Shown piece by piece: positions 2,269-9,602 of a stretch of 64,000 nt of DNA (the first letter of the stretch is position 1; each line of letters begins with the position of its first letter). The notes beneath the pieces are model-generated. The model searched no databases. It was given only the letters and a program-made list of their open reading frames with translations, and was not told where the DNA came from. Origin of the DNA: Janthinobacterium sp. J1-1 (GTDB taxonomy: Bacteria > Pseudomonadota > Gammaproteobacteria > Burkholderiales > Burkholderiaceae_D); the NCBI RefSeq assembly GCF_030944405.1, contig NZ_CP132339.1, forward strand, positions 6,510,001-6,574,000, given 5' to 3'. A program made the translations under genes and the position numbers.

Positions 2269-5112
2269 ATGGTCGAAAATGTAATCGCGCGTTCGCTGCG
2301 CGTCATGTTTGCCGGTAGTCTTGCCCTCGGCATGCACGCCGCGTATGCGCAAGAAACAACAGAAGCGCCGATGCAGCGCGTGGAAGTCACCGGTTCCAGC
2401 ATCAAGCGCATCGCTTCCGAAGCGTCGCTGCCGGTGCAGTCGTTCAATCAGAAAGACATCAAGAAATCGGGCGTGACCACCGTCACCGATTTCATCCAGC
2501 AAATCCCGGCCATGCAGGGCTTTTCCGTGGCGGCCGATTCGGTCGGCGGCGGCGGCGGTGGCGTGACCACGGCCTCGCTGCACGATATCGGTTCGGCTTA
2601 CACCCTGGTGCTGCTGAACGGCCGCCGCCTGGCGCCTGCCAACTCGGGCACCACTATCGACCTGAACTCGATTCCCCTGGCCGCCATCGAACGCGTCGAA
2701 GTGCTGACCGACGGCGCCTCGGCCCTGTACGGCGCCGACGCGATTGCCGGCGTGATCAACTTCATCCTGAAAAAAGGCGCAGCGCCACTGGAACTGAACG
2801 CCAAGTACTCGCGTCCTGAAGAAAAAGGCGGCGCCAGCAACTCGTTCTCGATCAGCAAGGGCTTTGGCGATATCGACGATGATGGCTACAGCATTTTCGT
2901 GTCGGCCAGCCATGACGAACAGAAGGCGCTGAAAGCATCGCAGCGCAGCTTCGCGCGCAGCGGCATCATCAACTTCAACGATCCGAAGACCGGTCAGGCG
3001 CTGCAATTCATCAATGGTTCCTCGCGTTCGGCCCCGGCCAATGCCAGCGTGAACTACAACCGTACCGATGCAAACGGCAATCTGGTGATCAATCCGGAGA
3101 CCAGCAAACCCTTTGTCGACAGCGTCAACCTGGCCAACCCGTATGCACTGGCCAATGGCGGCAAGTGTGCACCCAGCAATATGGACTTCTACGGCAACGG
3201 CAATTGCTATTTCGACTCGCCGGGAACCATCGAGATCAATCCGGAATCGAAACGCGATTCGCTCTTCAGTTCCGGCTCCATGAAGCTGGGCAAAACCGGC
3301 TGGCAGGGTTTCTACGACCTGGCCTACACGGAAGCGAAAATCGTGTCGAGCATTGCCCCTTACCCGGCTGACTTCTCGATCTCCCCGACTTCTCCGCTGT
3401 TCAGCAAGTATCTGGCGCCGCAACTGACCCCGACGCAGCTGGCCAATGCCGTTAGCGGCGTTGCCACCTACCGCTTGTCGGAAATGGGCAACCGCGTGTA
3501 TGACTACGGCACCAAGGCCACCCACCTGGTCGGTGGCGTGGAAGGCAGCGCTTTCGGCTGGGATATCAACACCGCCGTGACCTACTCGAAAAACAAGCAG
3601 ACGCAGAAATACGTCAGCGGCTTCCCACTGGCCGACCAGTTCAACGCGCAGATCGACGCCGGCAATATCGATCCGTTCGCCTACCCGGTGGGCAGCATGC
3701 CCGACGCCATGCGCCAGGCACTGCTGGGCACCGGCTTCAGCGGCACCTACAGCACGCAAACCGTGGAAATGAAGGGCATCGACGGCCGCGCGTCGCGCGA
3801 TGTATTCAAGCTGCCAGGCGGTACCGCCATGCTGGGCGTGGGCGCCGACTACCGCAACACCTCGTACAAGGTGCGCCAGGCCGACGTCGCCCGTGAAGCA
3901 CAGATCCTGTTCGACAATCCGCAAGTCGACAGCGACTACTCGCGCGACAATGCCGGCGCCTATGCCGAGCTGATGATGCCTGTCACCAAGAAACTGGAAC
4001 TGACCGGTTCGGTCCGTTACGACCAGATCAGCGCCGTCGACAACAAGCTGACCGGCAACAAGGTTGGCAAGACCGAAGATGCAGCCACCTGGAAGATCAG
4101 CGGCAAATACTCGGCCACCAGGAACCTGATGTTCCGCGCCGCCGCCGGCACCGGCTTCCGCGCCGCCAGCATGCAGGAAATCGCCGGACCGCTGGAAGAC
4201 TGGGGCGTTACCGGTGGTAACTACCAATGCCCGCTGACGGCAGCCAACGGCATGGCCGGCCACCCGCTGGCCGGCTATTGCAACAATGTCGGTCGTCAAC
4301 AGTTCGAAGCCTTCCAGGGCGGCAATCCCGACCTGAAACCGGAAAAATCGAAACAGTGGAGCATCGGCACCGTATTCGAGCCATTCGACAGCCTGTCGAT
4401 GTCGTTCGACCTGTGGAACGTCGAGATCCGCGACCAGGTGACCGCCGTCTCGGAAGGCCTGATCTTTGCCGATCCCGCCAAGTACGCTTCGCTGTTCACC
4501 ACCAAGCACATCAGCTCGACCGGCCTGGACGTACTGGCCATCAAGCTGCTGCCAATTAATATCGGCAAAGTGGAAAACCGCGGCATCGATTACGACTTCA
4601 CGCACAAGATGAAGCTGCTGGACGGCCGCCTGACCAGCCGCCTGTCGGGCACCTACCTGCTGCGTTCGCGCTACACCACGCCAGGTACCGACGATCAATG
4701 GGAAACCAGCTTGAACCGTTACGGTTCGAACGACAAGGTCAGCTTCCGCAATATCATCAAGGCCACGACCTCGTATGAAACCGCGAAGTTTACGCACACC
4801 CTGAGCGCCAGCTACCGCAACGGCTACACCGACGTCAATCAGAGCGCGGACGATTGCGCCGTGATCGTCGCCGGCCAGCCAGGCGCCTGCTACGGCGTGC
4901 AGCTGGAAGTGCCGAGCTACACGACGTTCGACCTGCAAAGCGCGTACCGCCCGATGAGCAACGTGGAAATCACGGCCGGCATCCTGAACATGTTCGACCG
5001 CAATCCGCCGTTCACGCTGCGCAATACCGGCTCGCACCAGGTGGGCTACAACCCGGCGTACTCGAGCGCCCTGGGCCGCCAGTTCTACCTGAGCGGTTCC
5101 TACAAGTTCTAA
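2269..5112 (+). CDS. TonB-dependent receptor
   Basis: This is a complete 947-residue outer-membrane receptor. Residues 1-27 form a signal peptide ending AAYAQ. The plug follows with MQRVEVTGSSIKR, LLNGRRLAP (about residue 118) and ERVEVLTDGASALYGADAIAGVINFI, which are standard for this family. A six-glycine stretch lies near residue 90. The barrel carries AGTGFRAASMQEIAG, NPDLKPEKSKQWSIG and LNMFDRNPPFTL, and the chain ends in GSYKF. The start has AAGGA about 10 bases upstream. It belongs to the same broad subfamily as the receptors on either side. The ligand is unknown; siderophore, peptide or oligosaccharide are all possible. Confidence 0.93.
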   Translation: MVENVIARSLRVMFAGSLALGMHAAYAQETTEAPMQRVEVTGSSIKRIASEASLPVQSFNQKDIKKSGVTTVTDFIQQIPAMQGFSVAADSVGGGGGGVTTASLHDIGSAYTLVLLNGRRLAPANSGTTIDLNSIPLAAIERVEVLTDGASALYGADAIAGVINFILKKGAAPLELNAKYSRPEEKGGASNSFSISKGFGDIDDDGYSIFVSASHDEQKALKASQRSFARSGIINFNDPKTGQALQFINGSSRSAPANASVNYNRTDANGNLVINPETSKPFVDSVNLANPYALANGGKCAPSNMDFYGNGNCYFDSPGTIEINPESKRDSLFSSGSMKLGKTGWQGFYDLAYTEAKIVSSIAPYPADFSISPTSPLFSKYLAPQLTPTQLANAVSGVATYRLSEMGNRVYDYGTKATHLVGGVEGSAFGWDINTAVTYSKNKQTQKYVSGFPLADQFNAQIDAGNIDPFAYPVGSMPDAMRQALLGTGFSGTYSTQTVEMKGIDGRASRDVFKLPGGTAMLGVGADYRNTSYKVRQADVAREAQILFDNPQVDSDYSRDNAGAYAELMMPVTKKLELTGSVRYDQISAVDNKLTGNKVGKTEDAATWKISGKYSATRNLMFRAAAGTGFRAASMQEIAGPLEDWGVTGGNYQCPLTAANGMAGHPLAGYCNNVGRQQFEAFQGGNPDLKPEKSKQWSIGTVFEPFDSLSMSFDLWNVEIRDQVTAVSEGLIFADPAKYASLFTTKHISSTGLDVLAIKLLPINIGKVENRGIDYDFTHKMKLLDGRLTSRLSGTYLLRSRYTTPGTDDQWETSLNRYGSNDKVSFRNIIKATTSYETAKFTHTLSASYRNGYTDVNQSADDCAVIVAGQPGACYGVQLEVPSYTTFDLQSAYRPMSNVEITAGILNMFDRNPPFTLRNTGSHQVGYNPAYSSALGRQFYLSGSYKF

Positions 5113-5134: not shown

Positions 5135-5171
5135 AAAAGCCCGGAAAGCTTCACGCTTTCCGGGCTTTTTT
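5135..5171. terminator. Bidirectional terminator between receptor and DAHP synthase genes
   Basis: The arms AAAAGCCCGGAAAGC and GCTTTCCGGGCTTTTTT form a perfect 15-base-pair stem around the loop TTCAC. The T run on one side and the A run on the other let it serve both convergent genes. Confidence 0.9.
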
Positions 5172-5190: not shown

Positions 5191-6255
5191 TTATTCCTTG
5201 TCGCCCTGCAAGCGGCGCCGCTTGACGGCGGCGGCCAGGTTTTCCAGCACCGCCACGCTGGCGCTCCAGTCGATGCAGCCGTCGGTCACGGACTGGCCAT
5301 ACACCAGTTCCTTGCCAGGCACCAGGTCCTGGCGCCCCGCCACCAGGTGCGATTCGACCATCACGCCGACGATGCGGTCGTCGCCGCCGGCCACCTGCGC
5401 GGCGATGTCGGCACAGACGGGCACCTGGTTTTCCGGTTTTTTCGAGCTGTTCGCATGCGAGGCGTCGATCATCAACCGCGACGCCAGGCCCTGCGCGGCG
5501 ATCGCCTTGCAGGCTTCTTCCACGCTGGCCGCGTCGTAATTGGGCAGCTTGCCGCCGCGCAGGATGATATGGCAGTCTTCATTGCCGTTGGTCGAGACGA
5601 TGGCCGAGTGGCCGCCCTTGGTGACCGACAGGAAATGGTGCGGCTGCGAGGCGGCCTTGATGGCTTCCACGGCGATTTTGACATTGCCGTCAGTGCCATT
5701 CTTGAAGCCGACCGGACAGGACAGCCCCGACGCCAGTTCGCGGTGCACCTGCGACTCGGTGGTGCGCGCGCCGATCGCGCCCCAGCTGATCAGGTCGGCG
5801 ATATATTGCGGGCTGATCACGTCCAAAAATTCCGTGCCGGCCGGCAGGCCCAGTTCATTGATGTCGCGCAGCAGCTCGCGCGCCATGCGCAGGCCGTCGT
5901 TGATGCGGAAGCTGTTGTCCATGTACGGGTCGTTGATCAGCCCCTTCCAGCCGACCGTGGTGCGCGGTTTTTCGAAATACACGCGCATCACGATTTCCAG
6001 CTCGCCGGCAAAGCGGGCGCGTTCCTTGACCAGCAGGCGCGCATATTCCATCGCCGCTTTCGTGTCGTGGATCGAGCAAGGGCCGATCACCACCATCAGG
6101 CGGTCGTCCTGGCCATGCAGGATGCGGTGCAGGGCCACGCGGGAATCGGCTGCCGTCTGGGCGGCAGCTTCCGAGCAGGCAAATTCGCGGATCAGGTGGG
6201 ACGGCGGAGTCAATTCCTTCATTTCGCGAATACGCAAATCATCGGTGCGGGGCAT
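5191..6255 (-). CDS. aroG: 3-deoxy-7-phosphoheptulonate (DAHP) synthase, class I
   Basis: Catalyses the first step of the shikimate pathway, joining phosphoenolpyruvate and erythrose 4-phosphate to give DAHP. The protein has 354 residues, close to E. coli AroG (350). It has the N-terminal DDLRI...MKELTPP segment shared by AroF/AroG/AroH, GPCSIHD near residue 57, RVYFEKPRTTVGWKG, GARTTESQVHRELASGLSCPVGFKNGTDG and a DASHANSSKKP metal/substrate motif. I chose the ATG at 6255 because GGAG lies six bases upstream; an upstream in-frame TTG is part of that ribosome binding site. The isozyme type (Phe-, Tyr- or Trp-sensitive) is not certain from sequence, but the leader in front of it is rich in Phe and Tyr codons. 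The gene has its own promoter, leader and attenuator, and is convergent with the upstream receptor gene. Confidence 0.96.
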   Translation of the reverse strand: MPRTDDLRIREMKELTPPSHLIREFACSEAAAQTAADSRVALHRILHGQDDRLMVVIGPCSIHDTKAAMEYARLLVKERARFAGELEIVMRVYFEKPRTTVGWKGLINDPYMDNSFRINDGLRMARELLRDINELGLPAGTEFLDVISPQYIADLISWGAIGARTTESQVHRELASGLSCPVGFKNGTDGNVKIAVEAIKAASQPHHFLSVTKGGHSAIVSTNGNEDCHIILRGGKLPNYDAASVEEACKAIAAQGLASRLMIDASHANSSKKPENQVPVCADIAAQVAGGDDRIVGVMVESHLVAGRQDLVPGKELVYGQSVTDGCIDWSASVAVLENLAAAVKRRRLQGDKE

Positions 6256-6295
6256 TATTTTCTCCAAAATTTGAACAGGGGTAAAACATCTGGGT

Positions 6296-6326
6296 AAAAA
6301 AAAACCGCCATCAGTGGCGGTTTTTT
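6296..6326 (-). terminator. Attenuator terminator hairpin upstream of aroG
   Basis: Read on the minus strand, AAAAAACCGCCA pairs with TGGCGGTTTTTT across a CTGA loop, followed by an uninterrupted run of T (nine in all). It lies 40 bases before the aroG start codon and after the Phe/Tyr-rich leader peptide. It would therefore stop transcription before the gene, as an attenuator does, unless segment CCGCC is captured by an earlier GGCGG segment. Confidence 0.85.
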
Positions 6327-6371
6327 AGAATTTGCTGGGATCTCGTTTTTTGCTGCTACGTGAACCGACCG

Positions 6372-6440
6372 CTACTCCACCGCCTTTGGGTTGGAATTGC
6401 TAAAGTAAAAATAGGCGGTAAAAAAGTGGCGAGCGAACAT
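6372..6440 (-). CDS. Phe/Tyr-rich leader peptide of the aroG attenuator
   Basis: A 22-codon open reading frame whose residues 5-13 read HFFTAYFYF: five Phe (one at position 2) and two Tyr among 22 residues. It starts at ATG 6440, about 19 bases after the predicted transcription start; an in-frame ATG nine bases earlier is an alternative. Codons 8-9 (ACC GCC) form arm 1 of a possible hairpin. The last codons (AAG GCG GTG GAG) form arm 2, which can also pair with the ascending arm of the terminator at 6296-6326. This is the layout of a classical ribosome-mediated attenuator, as in the E. coli pheA leader. The peptide itself presumably has no function beyond being translated. Confidence 0.8.
   Translation of the reverse strand: MFARHFFTAYFYFSNSNPKAVE
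6377..6420 (-). promoter_or_regulatory. Attenuator arms 1 and 2 (anti-antiterminator / antiterminator)
   Basis: On the minus strand arm 1 is ACCGCCT (6413-6419), within the Phe/Tyr codon cluster. Arm 2 is AGGCGGT (about 6379-6385), at the end of the leader. They pair over seven bases. Arm 2 can instead pair GGCGGT with ACCGCC of the terminator's first arm. A ribosome stalled at the Phe/Tyr codons would cover arm 1, free arm 2 and prevent termination. A ribosome reaching the stop codon at 6372 would cover arm 2 and allow termination. Confidence 0.7.
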
Positions 6441-6465
6441 GCGAGTCATCCGTAAGTGATGAACG

Positions 6466-6495
6466 ACTATAAACCCATTCTGCAAAGCTTGGCAA
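6466..6495 (-). promoter_or_regulatory. Predicted sigma70 promoter of the aroG leader transcript
   Basis: On the minus strand, TTGCCA (6495-6490) and TATAGT (6471-6466) are separated by 18 bases. The expected start near 6459 would give a very short untranslated region before the leader peptide ATG, which fits an attenuation leader. Confidence 0.6.
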
Positions 6496-6956
6496 GCATA
6501 TTTGTCGGCAAAGCCGCGGTTGGCTGTCGTTTCAGGCGGCAAAGTGGGAAGAAAACCGCAAAAAGTTGCGCGCCCTGCCCCCTCCTTACCTAACTTTACA
6601 TCGCCGCCCGCCACTGTCGCCAGGCAGAAAACCACGCAAACTGTGTCCAAATGTAAGCGTTGCATTTCACATACTGAAGTTCCCCTGCACACCGCATGCC
6701 GCCAGCGCCAGCCATCCGGCAGGGTCCTGGCACTCTGCCGTCCACGGGCCATGGTGCACGAACCCTTCTTTACAGCTGTGATGTTTGGCGACTGTTGTTC
6801 GTTTTCACACTTGATTTTCTGGTCATTGCTGCGTCACTTTTCACATGTTTTGATGGCTGCGCTCGCTATCCCAGGAGGATGGCCAGCACATCGCATCGGC
6901 GACGTATCCGCCTAGCCGAACAATCAAACTCAAGAATTACCTCAGGAGTGTTAGCC
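6496..6956. other. Intergenic region between the aroG promoter and the next receptor gene
   Basis: About 460 bases lie between the divergent aroG leader promoter and the receptor start at 6957. The open frame extending upstream of 6957 has no ribosome binding site and unusual composition, so it is not taken as coding. The promoter of the receptor must lie here, but I see no clear -35/-10 pair. Confidence 0.45.
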
Positions 6957-9602
6957 ATGATGATAGAAAGCGTGTTGTCCCGATCCCTGCGCCTCATGTT
7001 CGCCGGTTCGCTGGCGCTGGGCGCGCATGCCGTCCAGGCGCAAGCCCTGGTCGGCGATGCCGACGGCGAGATGCAGAAAGTGGAAGTGACGGGTTCCAGC
7101 ATCAAGCGGCTGTCATCGCAGACGGCGCTGCCGATCACCTCGATCAAGGCGGAAGACTTCATCAAGCAAGGCTTGACCACCGCGCAGGAAGTGATGAACA
7201 CGATCCCGATGAACCAGAGTTCGACCGGCAGCAGCCAGTCGGTGGGATCGGGCACGGGCGGCATGTCGAGCGCCGACCTGCGCGGCCTTGGCAGCGACAA
7301 GACGCTGGTGCTGCTCAATGGCCGGCGCATCGCCAGCCATCCGTTCAATGGCGCCGCCGTCGACCTGAACATCATCCCCCTGTCGGCGCTGGACCGGGTC
7401 GAAGTGCTGCGCGACGGCGCTTCGGCCATCTATGGCACCGATGCCATCGGCGGCGTGATCAACTTCATCACCAAGCGCTCGGTGCAGGGCGCTACAGTCA
7501 GCGTCGAACACTATGCGCCGACCAGGAGTGGCGGCGGCGAGGAGTCGCGCATCAACCTGTCGGGCGGCTTCGGCAACCTGGCCACCGACGGCTACAATTT
7601 CTTTGGCGTCGCCGATGTGCACAAGCAAACATCGCTGGCGGCCACCTCGCGCGCGTTTTCCAGCACCAGCGTGATTCCGAGCCGTGGCGTGGACAACAGC
7701 AGCGGCACCTCGCAGCCGGCCAACTTCTATTCCGACAACGGCCTGACCGGCAACCCGTACGCGGCATCCAACTGCCCCGGCACCGGCCTGATCACCACCG
7801 CCAGCGGCACCTGCCGCACCGATACCGTCAAGTATATCGACGACATACCCGAAACCAAACAGGAATCCCTGCTGGGCAAGGCCACCTTCAAGCTGAGCCC
7901 CGACAATATCGCCACCGTCGAGTACCTGCACTCGCGCAGCACCAGCACCAGCAGCATCGCGCCGTCGCCCTTGACCGGCATCAGCATGACCTCGGCCAGC
8001 CCGTATTACCCGGGCAACGGCAATGTGCCGGGCGTGGCCGGCCTGGCCGGCGAAGACCTGACCCTCAACTGGCGCACCGTGGCGGCCGGCAAGCGCACCG
8101 GTTTCGACACCAGCACCTCGGACCGCCTGGTACTGGCGTCAGAAGGCCTGATAGGCGGCTGGGATTACAACGTGGGCCTGACCTATTCGATCAGCAAGGC
8201 GGCCAGCGCCTTTGTCAACGGCTATACCAATGACAGCCTGGTGAAAGCCGGCGTGCTGGACGGCACCTTGAACCCGTTCGGCGAGCGATCCGCGGCCGGC
8301 GCGGCCTACCTCGACGCGGCCCAGCTGCACGGGCAATACCTGGGCGCGAAGATGACCAGCACCGGCGTCGATGCCAAGGTCAGTCGCGAAATCTACCAGT
8401 TGCCGGCCGGCGCGGTCGGCTTTGCCGTCGGCACCGAGTTCCGCCATGACGAGGCCGAGTACAAGGTCAACCGCGCGCTGGCCTCGCAGGCGCAAAGCTC
8501 GGGCTATGCCGATGCGCAGGACCAGGCCGGTTCGCGCAATATCGCCGCCGTGTATTCGGAACTGAGCGCGCCGCTGCACAAGGACCTGGAGCTGTCGCTG
8601 GCGGCCCGCTACGACCACTACAACGACGTCGGCGGCAGCTTCAATCCGAAGGTGGGCCTGCGCTGGCAGCCAAGCAAGCAGGTATTGCTGCGCACCTCGT
8701 ACAACACGGGTTTCCGCGCGCCGACGCTGTATGACCTGCACGGCCCGGCCACCTCCACCTTCACCGGCAACTCGTATGACGATCCGGTGCTGTGCCCGGG
8801 CGGCACGGCCGTGGCCGGCGCCAATCCGAACGTGGCCTGCGGCCAGCAGCAATACATCCGCAGCGGCGGCAATGCCAACCTGAAGCCGGAAAAATCGAAG
8901 ACCTTCAGCGCCGGCATCGTGTTCGAACCGGTCAGTTCGGTCACCATGTCGCTCGACTATTTCAATATCAAAATCCGCGACAAGATCGGCACCGTGGCCG
9001 AACAGACGCTGTTCGACAACTACGAGAAATACCAGTCGGCGTTCGTGTATTCGGCGGACGGCAAGACGCTGCAGTATGTCAACGCCGTGCTCGATAACCT
9101 GGGTGAAGTCCATACCTCGGGCATCGACACCAGTTTCACCTGGCGCCTGCCGAAGAGCAGCTACGGCAACTTCACCTTCCAGTTCGACGGCAGCTGGGTG
9201 CACAGCTACAAGTACCAGAACGAAACGGGCGGCGAGTATATCGAAAACGTGGGCGTGTATGCCGACAACAACCCCGTGTTCCGCTGGAAGCACAACGCCT
9301 CGCTGACGTGGGCGCTGGGCAAGTGGAGCGCCAACCTGTCGAACAAATACATGAGCGGCTACCGCGACCAGAACTATGTCGACGCCGGCTATGAACAGAA
9401 CGTGAAAGCGTATTCCACCTTCTCGCTGTCGGGCGCGTATTCGGGCTGGAAAAACACCGATATCACGGTCGGCGTGAAAAACCTGTTCGACAAGAACCCG
9501 CCGTTCACCAACCAGGGCACGGTGTTCCAGACCGGCTACGATCCGCGCTACACCGACCCGCTGGGCCGTACCCTGTACGTAAAGGCTTCGTACAAGTTCT
9601 GA
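6957..9602 (+). CDS. TonB-dependent receptor
   Basis: An 881-residue outer-membrane receptor. The start at 6957 is chosen because AGGAG lies eight bases upstream and a signal peptide (LMFAGSLALGAHAVQAQ) begins right after; the frame stays open 87 codons further upstream without supporting signals. The plug has MQKVEVTGSSIKR, LLNGRRIASHP and DRVEVLRDGASAIYGTDAIGGVINFI. The barrel has NTGFRAPTLYD, NLKPEKSKTFSAG, KNLFDKNPPFTN and a final SYKF. It is closely similar along its length to the partial receptor at 2-1921, which points to duplication, and its N-terminus resembles the receptor at 2269. The substrate is unknown. Confidence 0.93.
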   Translation: MMIESVLSRSLRLMFAGSLALGAHAVQAQALVGDADGEMQKVEVTGSSIKRLSSQTALPITSIKAEDFIKQGLTTAQEVMNTIPMNQSSTGSSQSVGSGTGGMSSADLRGLGSDKTLVLLNGRRIASHPFNGAAVDLNIIPLSALDRVEVLRDGASAIYGTDAIGGVINFITKRSVQGATVSVEHYAPTRSGGGEESRINLSGGFGNLATDGYNFFGVADVHKQTSLAATSRAFSSTSVIPSRGVDNSSGTSQPANFYSDNGLTGNPYAASNCPGTGLITTASGTCRTDTVKYIDDIPETKQESLLGKATFKLSPDNIATVEYLHSRSTSTSSIAPSPLTGISMTSASPYYPGNGNVPGVAGLAGEDLTLNWRTVAAGKRTGFDTSTSDRLVLASEGLIGGWDYNVGLTYSISKAASAFVNGYTNDSLVKAGVLDGTLNPFGERSAAGAAYLDAAQLHGQYLGAKMTSTGVDAKVSREIYQLPAGAVGFAVGTEFRHDEAEYKVNRALASQAQSSGYADAQDQAGSRNIAAVYSELSAPLHKDLELSLAARYDHYNDVGGSFNPKVGLRWQPSKQVLLRTSYNTGFRAPTLYDLHGPATSTFTGNSYDDPVLCPGGTAVAGANPNVACGQQQYIRSGGNANLKPEKSKTFSAGIVFEPVSSVTMSLDYFNIKIRDKIGTVAEQTLFDNYEKYQSAFVYSADGKTLQYVNAVLDNLGEVHTSGIDTSFTWRLPKSSYGNFTFQFDGSWVHSYKYQNETGGEYIENVGVYADNNPVFRWKHNASLTWALGKWSANLSNKYMSGYRDQNYVDAGYEQNVKAYSTFSLSGAYSGWKNTDITVGVKNLFDKNPPFTNQGTVFQTGYDPRYTDPLGRTLYVKASYKF

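Follow-up and report, generated by a model that had tools for sequence, protein, structure and literature searches.

A Phe/Tyr-rich leader peptide and terminator before aroG in Janthinobacterium sp. J1-1 and its relatives: a probable ribosome-mediated transcription attenuator

The window analysed in this work is the whole stretch of 64,000 nucleotides from Janthinobacterium sp. J1-1 (contig NZ_CP132339.1, positions 6,510,001 to 6,574,000). The minus strand of the window carries aroG (5191-6255), which encodes a 3-deoxy-D-arabino-heptulosonate 7-phosphate (DAHP) synthase of the AroFGH family as assigned by NCBIfam profiles. The aroG product scored 581.7 bits against the AroG equivalog NF006723 (cut-off 568) and 532.6 bits against TIGR00034 (cut-off 173.2). 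The equivalog match places the gene at the first step of aromatic synthesis, which is the pathway of the amino acids that the element in front of it would sense. That element spans 6495 to 6255 on the minus strand in the order promoter, leader, terminator, and aroG. We conclude that it is very probably a ribosome-mediated transcription attenuator.

All features of the element lie on the minus strand. The predicted sigma-70 promoter of the leader transcript (6466-6495) has the form TTGCCA-N18-TATAGT and matches 10 of 12 positions. The likely Shine-Dalgarno sequence of the leader peptide, GGA (6449-6451), is located 8 nt 5' of the leader ATG. The open reading frame (ORF) of the leader peptide, MFARHFFTAYFYFSNSNPKAVE (6372-6440), consists of 22 codons from the ATG to the stop codon TAG and is conserved in relatives. 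As in trp- and phe-type attenuators, a short leader ORF with a run of regulatory codons (here HFFTAYFYF) is present, and it is probably translated. The sensor codons suggested by sequence and conservation are Phe6, Phe7, Tyr10, Phe11, Tyr12, and Phe13, with Thr and Ala between the two groups (6402-6425). Arm 1, ACCGCCT (6413-6419), can form a core of 7 bp with arm 2, AGGCGGT (6379-6385), which stands directly 5' of the leader stop codon and contains the core GGCGG.

An intrinsic terminator (6326-6296) lies between the leader and aroG, the first structural gene, and is also present in relatives. It consists of a 12-bp stem, AAAAAACCGCCA/TGGCGGTTTTTT, a CTGA loop, and nine T. Its 5' arm, identified from the fold, is arm 3, AAAAAACCGCCA (6315-6326), and its 3' arm and tail, identified from sequence and fold, are arm 4, TGGCGG with the nine-T run (6296-6310). 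The ATG of aroG (6255) follows 40 nt after the last T of the terminator and is preceded by a likely Shine-Dalgarno sequence, GGAG (6262-6265), as judged from the sequence. A sequence-only reading of this DNA had listed the promoter, the 22-codon leader with HFFTAYFYF, arms 1 and 2, the terminator, and the 40-nt gap to aroG, and all of them were recovered where it had placed them on the minus strand. Its terminator followed by nine T needs one correction. The count after GGCGG is nine T in total, and two of these are already part of arm TGGCGGTT.

Within the window, the leader is the sole ATG-started ORF of 12-45 codons with at least six Phe or Tyr in 10 codons (two start codons, one ORF). The terminator was not among the output of a simple terminator scan; the RNA fold recovers it, and it is strong. 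As a motif by itself, the promoter is at the level of chance, with 1 found against 0.8 expected. Of 78 related loci, 56 have a promoter-like pair 5' of the leader, 39 of these at 10 of 12 positions, and the same criterion gave none in the other 22. A mechanical ORF of 126 codons (6372-6752, minus strand) shares the frame of the leader and crosses the promoter, and gene finders could call it as a small hypothetical protein.

Going by its relatives, the window belongs to the family Oxalobacteraceae. The leader rich in Phe and Tyr, with the aromatic run in frame, was identified before aroG in 108 of 110 loci. This set includes the Burkholderia-like loci L090, L092-L095, L097-L101, and L103-L110, and some of its loci are one contig found twice. 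The two loci outside the 108 are L101, where the leader is frameshifted, and L050, where there is none. Locus L101 belongs to Candidatus Burkholderia humilis (about 2326-2458); the frameshift is inside the aromatic run, and the terminator and arm 2 remain. Attenuation is probably broken in L101 because its leader is frameshifted. Locus L050 is from an Oxalobacteraceae metagenome-assembled genome and has the same upstream sequence as L147, so that the two are very probably one locus. There, aroG stands close behind another apparent coding region, and neither leader nor terminator was found before aroG. The 118 loci that passed the ORF filter contain 93 distinct leader sequences; L143 is among the 118, has no terminator, and was not counted as a leader.

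A covariance model was built from 34 elements of the window's family. Its search of the whole genome of the window gave one strong match (E 2.4e-32), which is the locus described here. The other 20 matches in that genome have E of at least 0.025 and are mostly partial matches on the terminator part, and the best other full-length match (E 0.46) has no aromatic leader. On inspection, no aromatic leader was seen at the secondary matches in the window's genome (L232 and L233) and in relatives (L275, L276, and L277). Among 60 genomes of the window's family, the element was found before aroG in 54, of which 46 have a full-length match at E <= 2.4e-15 and eight have weaker matches (L267-L274) that are also aroG leaders. 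Of the remaining six genomes, four have no match at E <= 0.1 and two have weak matches only. The presence of aroG beside the match was verified at 40 places, namely 30 of 30 loci and 10 of 13 regions, the other three regions being secondary matches without aroG.

The element is not confined to Oxalobacteraceae. Leader and terminator were both identified in eight of 19 aroG orthologue regions, including L145 and L146 of the window's own genus and L118 with an imperfect terminator stem. The leader was absent from all 17 regions upstream of more distant copies of DAHP synthase (about 50-55% identical). In an order-wide sample of 80 further upstream regions of aroG-like genes, leader and terminator were present in 26. 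A script found 22 of these, and four with mismatched or long-looped stems (L192, L194, L222, and L224) were found by eye. Altogether the element was identified in 13 family-level groups (f1, which is the window's family, f3, f4, f9, f10, f11, f12, f19, f22, f31, f39, f43, and f49). Between these groups the leader sequence is strongly divergent and the aromatic run is kept, for example as FYFYFFW, WFFFGFF, YFFWFWY, or FYFWFS.

The pattern of change in the leader codons is that of a translated sequence. Among the 13 distinct blocks of the Burkholderia-like group, changes in the seven columns of the aromatic run are confined to codon position 3, with summed diversity of 0, 0, and 1.70 over the three positions; a column beside the run alternates between His and Tyr. 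For the 52 blocks of the window's family, the diversity of the aromatic columns by codon position is 0.26, 0.46, and 0.82. Over the 13 codons before the core, the ratio of nonsynonymous to synonymous changes relative to neutral is 0.09 in the Burkholderia-like group and 0.48 in the window's family, with all pairs used and relatedness ignored. Identical blocks were merged for these counts (60 to 52 and 19 to 13), and L041, L046, and L065 of the window's family and the Burkholderia-like L101 were omitted since their core is off the expected frame. The parts of the leader 3' of the sensor codons are also conserved.

Both conformations of the RNA were folded, as the sequence-only reading had suggested, and the 1:2 hairpin, the antiterminator, and the terminator all form. 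When the leader is folded to a point slightly beyond arm 2, it forms the 1:2 hairpin, ACCGCCT/AGGCGGT with flanking pairs, at -14.7 kcal/mol. A fold that starts where a stalled ribosome would leave the RNA free and ends slightly beyond arm 3, without arm 4, yields a long antiterminator hairpin (6316-6384) of -18.6 kcal/mol, in which arm 2, arm 3, and inner helices of the spacer take part. The antiterminator is thus probably a longer hairpin than first described, as modelled by these folds. Its inner helices are seen in single folds only and lack support from a consensus structure, since MAFFT aligns the 3' half of the spacer poorly. The block GGTTCACGTAGC after the leader stop codon (6355-6366, minus strand) is conserved in part of the family in alignment A1 and joins the inner helices of the single folds; it might also serve as a polymerase pause signal. 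Inclusion of arm 4 makes the terminator the minimum-energy form, as does folding only the part 3' of arm 2, which mimics a ribosome at the stop codon. The 2:3 antiterminator and the 3:4 terminator are mutually exclusive. Since the terminator wins once arm 4 is present, the decision is expected to fall during transcription.

The same pairing was found in relatives. With arm 4 left out, 84 of 85 elements have a minimum-energy fold in which the core of arm 2 is paired with arm 3, arm 2 being taken at a second GGCGG in L039 and L046. The sole exception, L120, seems to be due only to the choice of another CCGCC as arm 3. The sequence-only reading had given arm 2 two partners, arm 1 and the first terminator arm. 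The second of these holds across the elements, and the first, ACCGCCT, is a local solution. The coding leader, the terminator, and the retention of arm 2/arm 3 complementarity between families are shown as far as comparison of sequences can show them.

The covariation between arms 2 and 3 was followed in the core and in the flank bases next to it. Alignment A1 holds 55 sequences, with L039, L046, and near-duplicates left out. The core GGCGG/CCGCC is practically invariant, and its six pairs are fixed except for one G-U. The flank base adjoining the core (x1) is paired between the two arms in 42 of 81 distinct combinations of family and flank, whereas shuffling gives 28.6 and none of 5000 shuffles reaches 42, with G-T counted as paired and identical flanks merged; a weakness of this test is that the shuffles ignore relatedness. 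Outside the window's family, x1 is paired in 28 of 33 combinations compared with 22.5 (1 of 5000 as high), and inside it in 14 of 48 compared with 9.0 (20 of 5000 as high). The pair types seen are T-A, C-G, and A-T. Outside the window's family, x3 is also significant (11 of 5000 as high) and x2 is not (5000 of 5000). The alignment of relatives had been named as the place to look for conserved Phe/Tyr codons and compensatory changes in the arms; the codons are conserved and the x1 flank covaries, and the core GGCGG/CCGCC has no compensatory change. Taken together, codon conservation, the arm 2/arm 3 covariation at x1, and both folds support the proposed ribosome-mediated attenuation.

These results also bear on a rival explanation, in which the 5' region has a plain constitutive terminator that reduces expression of aroG or produces a short RNA, with the small ORF incidental. 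The terminator is strong by itself, as this explanation would have it, and L207 of group f43 retains the terminator with no aromatic leader seen. However, the purifying selection on the leader codons, the flank covariation of arms 2 and 3, and the co-occurrence of leader and terminator in the 13 family-level groups all speak against it, and we regard it as very improbable. Locus L207 differs in this respect from L201 of the same group, and it is possibly a decayed attenuator.

Control of the terminator by a riboswitch for a small molecule, or by an RNA element that binds a protein, was also considered. In favour of it, the spacer is partly conserved in the family and forms inner helices in single folds. 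However, the spacer differs between groups where the aromatic run is kept, and no Rfam family reached its gathering score in the window. The region 6240-6520 has sixteen weak Rfam matches, all far below the gathering scores; those to Leu_leader, Phe_leader, and Trp_leader fall in the spacer and terminator. This explanation is extremely improbable in our judgement. As an identity for the element itself, Rfam Phe_leader (RF01859) was rejected, since the match (6359-6295), at 23.5 bits, is below the gathering score of 55 and lies 3' of the leader ORF. A scan of three leader peptides with NCBIfam gave no family.

The geometry of the leader was measured in a set of 112 elements, which excludes L001-L030 and L145 (same leader as L042) and keeps L149 though it is identical to L090 (Caballeronia). 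Group f31, to which L149 belongs, was matched to the Burkholderia-like loci by this identity. There are 4-11 aromatic codons before the core in each element. From the end of the last aromatic codon to the arm 2 core there are mostly 8-17 nt, and from the end of the core to the stop codon mostly 5-20 nt. Arms 2 and 3 lie a median of 57.5 nt apart (range 41-77). Among L001-L110, the stop codon lies at most 25 nt behind the core in 103 of 110 loci, L050 being without a leader. This geometry fits a ribosome that leaves arm 2 exposed when it stalls and covers it when transcription terminates.

From the sequences we infer stalling, read-through, and the amino acids sensed, and an attenuator with these parts would act as follows. 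RNA polymerase would start just 5' of the leader ORF and a ribosome would translate the leader behind it. When charged tRNA for Phe, and probably also for Tyr, is short, the ribosome would stall on the aromatic codons, cover arm 1, and leave arm 2 free. Free arm 2 would pair with arm 3 before arm 4 is made, so that no terminator forms and transcription continues into aroG. With an ample supply of aromatic amino acids, the ribosome would reach the stop codon beside arm 2 and cover this arm, and the 3:4 terminator would form, with termination about 40 nt 5' of aroG. If there is no translation at all, the pairing of arms 1 and 2 would also leave the terminator free in this genus.

The leader peptide or the short terminated RNA may also act in trans, like peTrpL of Sinorhizobium meliloti, which is the precedent for such action in the accessible part of PMC7298713. 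The conservation of the leader behind the sensor codons would agree with a function of the peptide. However, the conserved end of the leader coincides with arm 2 and the position of the stop codon, and is explained by attenuation in cis, so that an additional action in trans appears improbable.

Several observations weigh against attenuation at aroG. No compensatory change was found in the 2:3 core by RNAalifold and pair counting in the window's family and in the Burkholderia-like group. The x1 base is unpaired in 39 of the 81 combinations, and the flank bases x2 and x3 are not significant when pooled (432 and 512 of 5000 shuffles as high). An upstream partner for arm 2 was found in 64 of 85 elements at varying places, so arm 1 is not conserved, and the folding of the spacer is barely better than that of shuffled sequence (mean z -0.9). 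The stop codon lies more than 25 nt beyond the core in six of 109 leaders (L014, L039, L060, L061, L101, and L107). The element was not found in 54 of the 80 order-wide regions, of which L153 ends at a contig edge and some are second copies. None was seen in 17 sampled groups (f2, f5, f6, f13, f14, f17, f20, f21, f24, f25, f27, f29, f32, f38, f42, f46, and f51). Among the six leaders with a distant stop codon, L014 comes from a genome of the Janthinobacterium group; its aromatic run is kept, and its frame passes arm 2 to a stop codon just 5' of the terminator, 52 nt behind the core.

The amino acids that are sensed can be considered from the composition of the leaders. Phe is about twice as frequent as Tyr, both are present in 107 of the 112 leaders, and L201 and L226 have Phe and neither Tyr nor Trp. 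Outside the window's family, 38 of 49 leaders have Trp codons, compared with 13 of 63 inside it. The leader and terminator may act as proposed with only Phe being sensed, and the Tyr codons, as well as the Trp codons of relatives, would then be passengers. This is what is reported for aroR of Corynebacterium glutamicum, whose Phe-Tyr-Phe leader controls aroF and is affected by limitation of Phe but not by the availability of Tyr, according to the accessible text of PMC11802643. The excess of Phe and the two leaders without Tyr and Trp agree with sensing of Phe alone. However, the joint presence of Phe and Tyr in nearly all leaders, the two Tyr columns of the Burkholderia-like run that vary just as TAT/TAC, and the frequency of Trp outside the family speak against this reading, and we consider sensing of Phe alone unlikely, though it deserves some weight.

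The Trp codons outside the family imply that the switch may read three aromatic amino acids. One leader would then read Phe, Tyr, and Trp, and a shortage of each would stall the ribosome and open the first common step, as an OR gate in one RNA. Such a switch would be old in a large betaproteobacterial order and would stand where gammaproteobacteria use TyrR or TrpR and three isozymes, and the Janthinobacterium copy would have lost, or never had, a Trp codon. We put this forward as a real possibility that falls short of probable.

Ribosome-mediated attenuation of pheA by the Phe codons of pheL is known in E. coli and other gammaproteobacteria (Rfam Phe_leader). The aroG element is similar to pheL in its attenuation logic with Phe codons and differs in its target, which is aroG and not pheA. 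The aroR-aroF attenuator of C. glutamicum was reportedly described by Neshat et al. in 2014 (cited in PMC11802643). In the accessible part of PMC4046766, the aroR-aroF attenuator is a prediction. As far as these sources describe it, aroR-aroF shares with the aroG element a Phe/Tyr leader before a DAHP synthase gene and attenuation at the first aromatic step, and the likeness is one of logic only. In contrast to the aroG element, which is betaproteobacterial and has 4-11 aromatic codons before the core, aroR is actinobacterial and has the shorter run Phe-Tyr-Phe. The uORFC-13-1 motif before Acholeplasma aroF has 24 unique representatives in the part of PMC8632094 that was available. It is similar to the aroG element in that an upstream ORF containing one or more Phe codons adjoins a terminator before a DAHP synthase gene; however, Acholeplasma belongs to a different phylum, and the two were likened by that paper's description and not by sequence. 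The TyrR and TrpR regulons that control aroF, aroG, and aroH are described in gammaproteobacterial lineages (PMC5343134, accessible part). They have the same kind of target and the same physiological signal as the aroG element, but TyrR and TrpR are DNA-binding regulators.

The sequence-only reading had suggested a possibly new regulatory element. A search of the open-licence literature gave no report of attenuation at aroG in betaproteobacteria, and a Burkholderia copy may be in the B. cenocepacia list of short 5' untranslated regions (PMC5688073 supplement). However, attenuation of a DAHP synthase gene is known in Corynebacterium, and the element extends beyond Oxalobacteraceae. The kind of attenuation is therefore already known, and the aroG element is a lineage-wide case with an unusually rich aromatic leader.

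Other regulation of aromatic synthesis was searched for in the window's genome. The helix-turn-helix family of TyrR (TIGR04381) had no match at E <= 0.001, with E. coli the only positive of 14 control genomes, so the regulator that membership in a TyrR regulon requires was not found there. No aromatic leader was found directly before pheA of this genome in the region examined, which does not cover the upstream side of the ORF preceding pheA. The trpE gene of the same genome is preceded by a Trp-rich leader ORF with a GTG start (...AWLWRRWQSWQA), followed by a hairpin and a T run (L265, near 1016510, reverse complement, about 1225-1400). This leader is a candidate for a classical trp attenuator.

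In the window, aroG is flanked by two similar large ORFs on the plus strand (2269-5112 and 6696-9602) that resemble TonB-dependent receptors by eye. An inverted repeat (5139-5165) is located between the 3' ends of aroG and ORF 2269-5112.

The aroG leader is a possible feedback point for the engineering of aromatic production in these bacteria. The mixed Phe/Tyr/Trp leaders allow us to ask if one attenuator integrates several amino acids, where the studied relative aroR has been reported to answer to Phe only. If attenuation at aroG is true, it would explain how a large betaproteobacterial lineage, including the window's genome with no TyrR match, tunes the entry step of aromatic synthesis.

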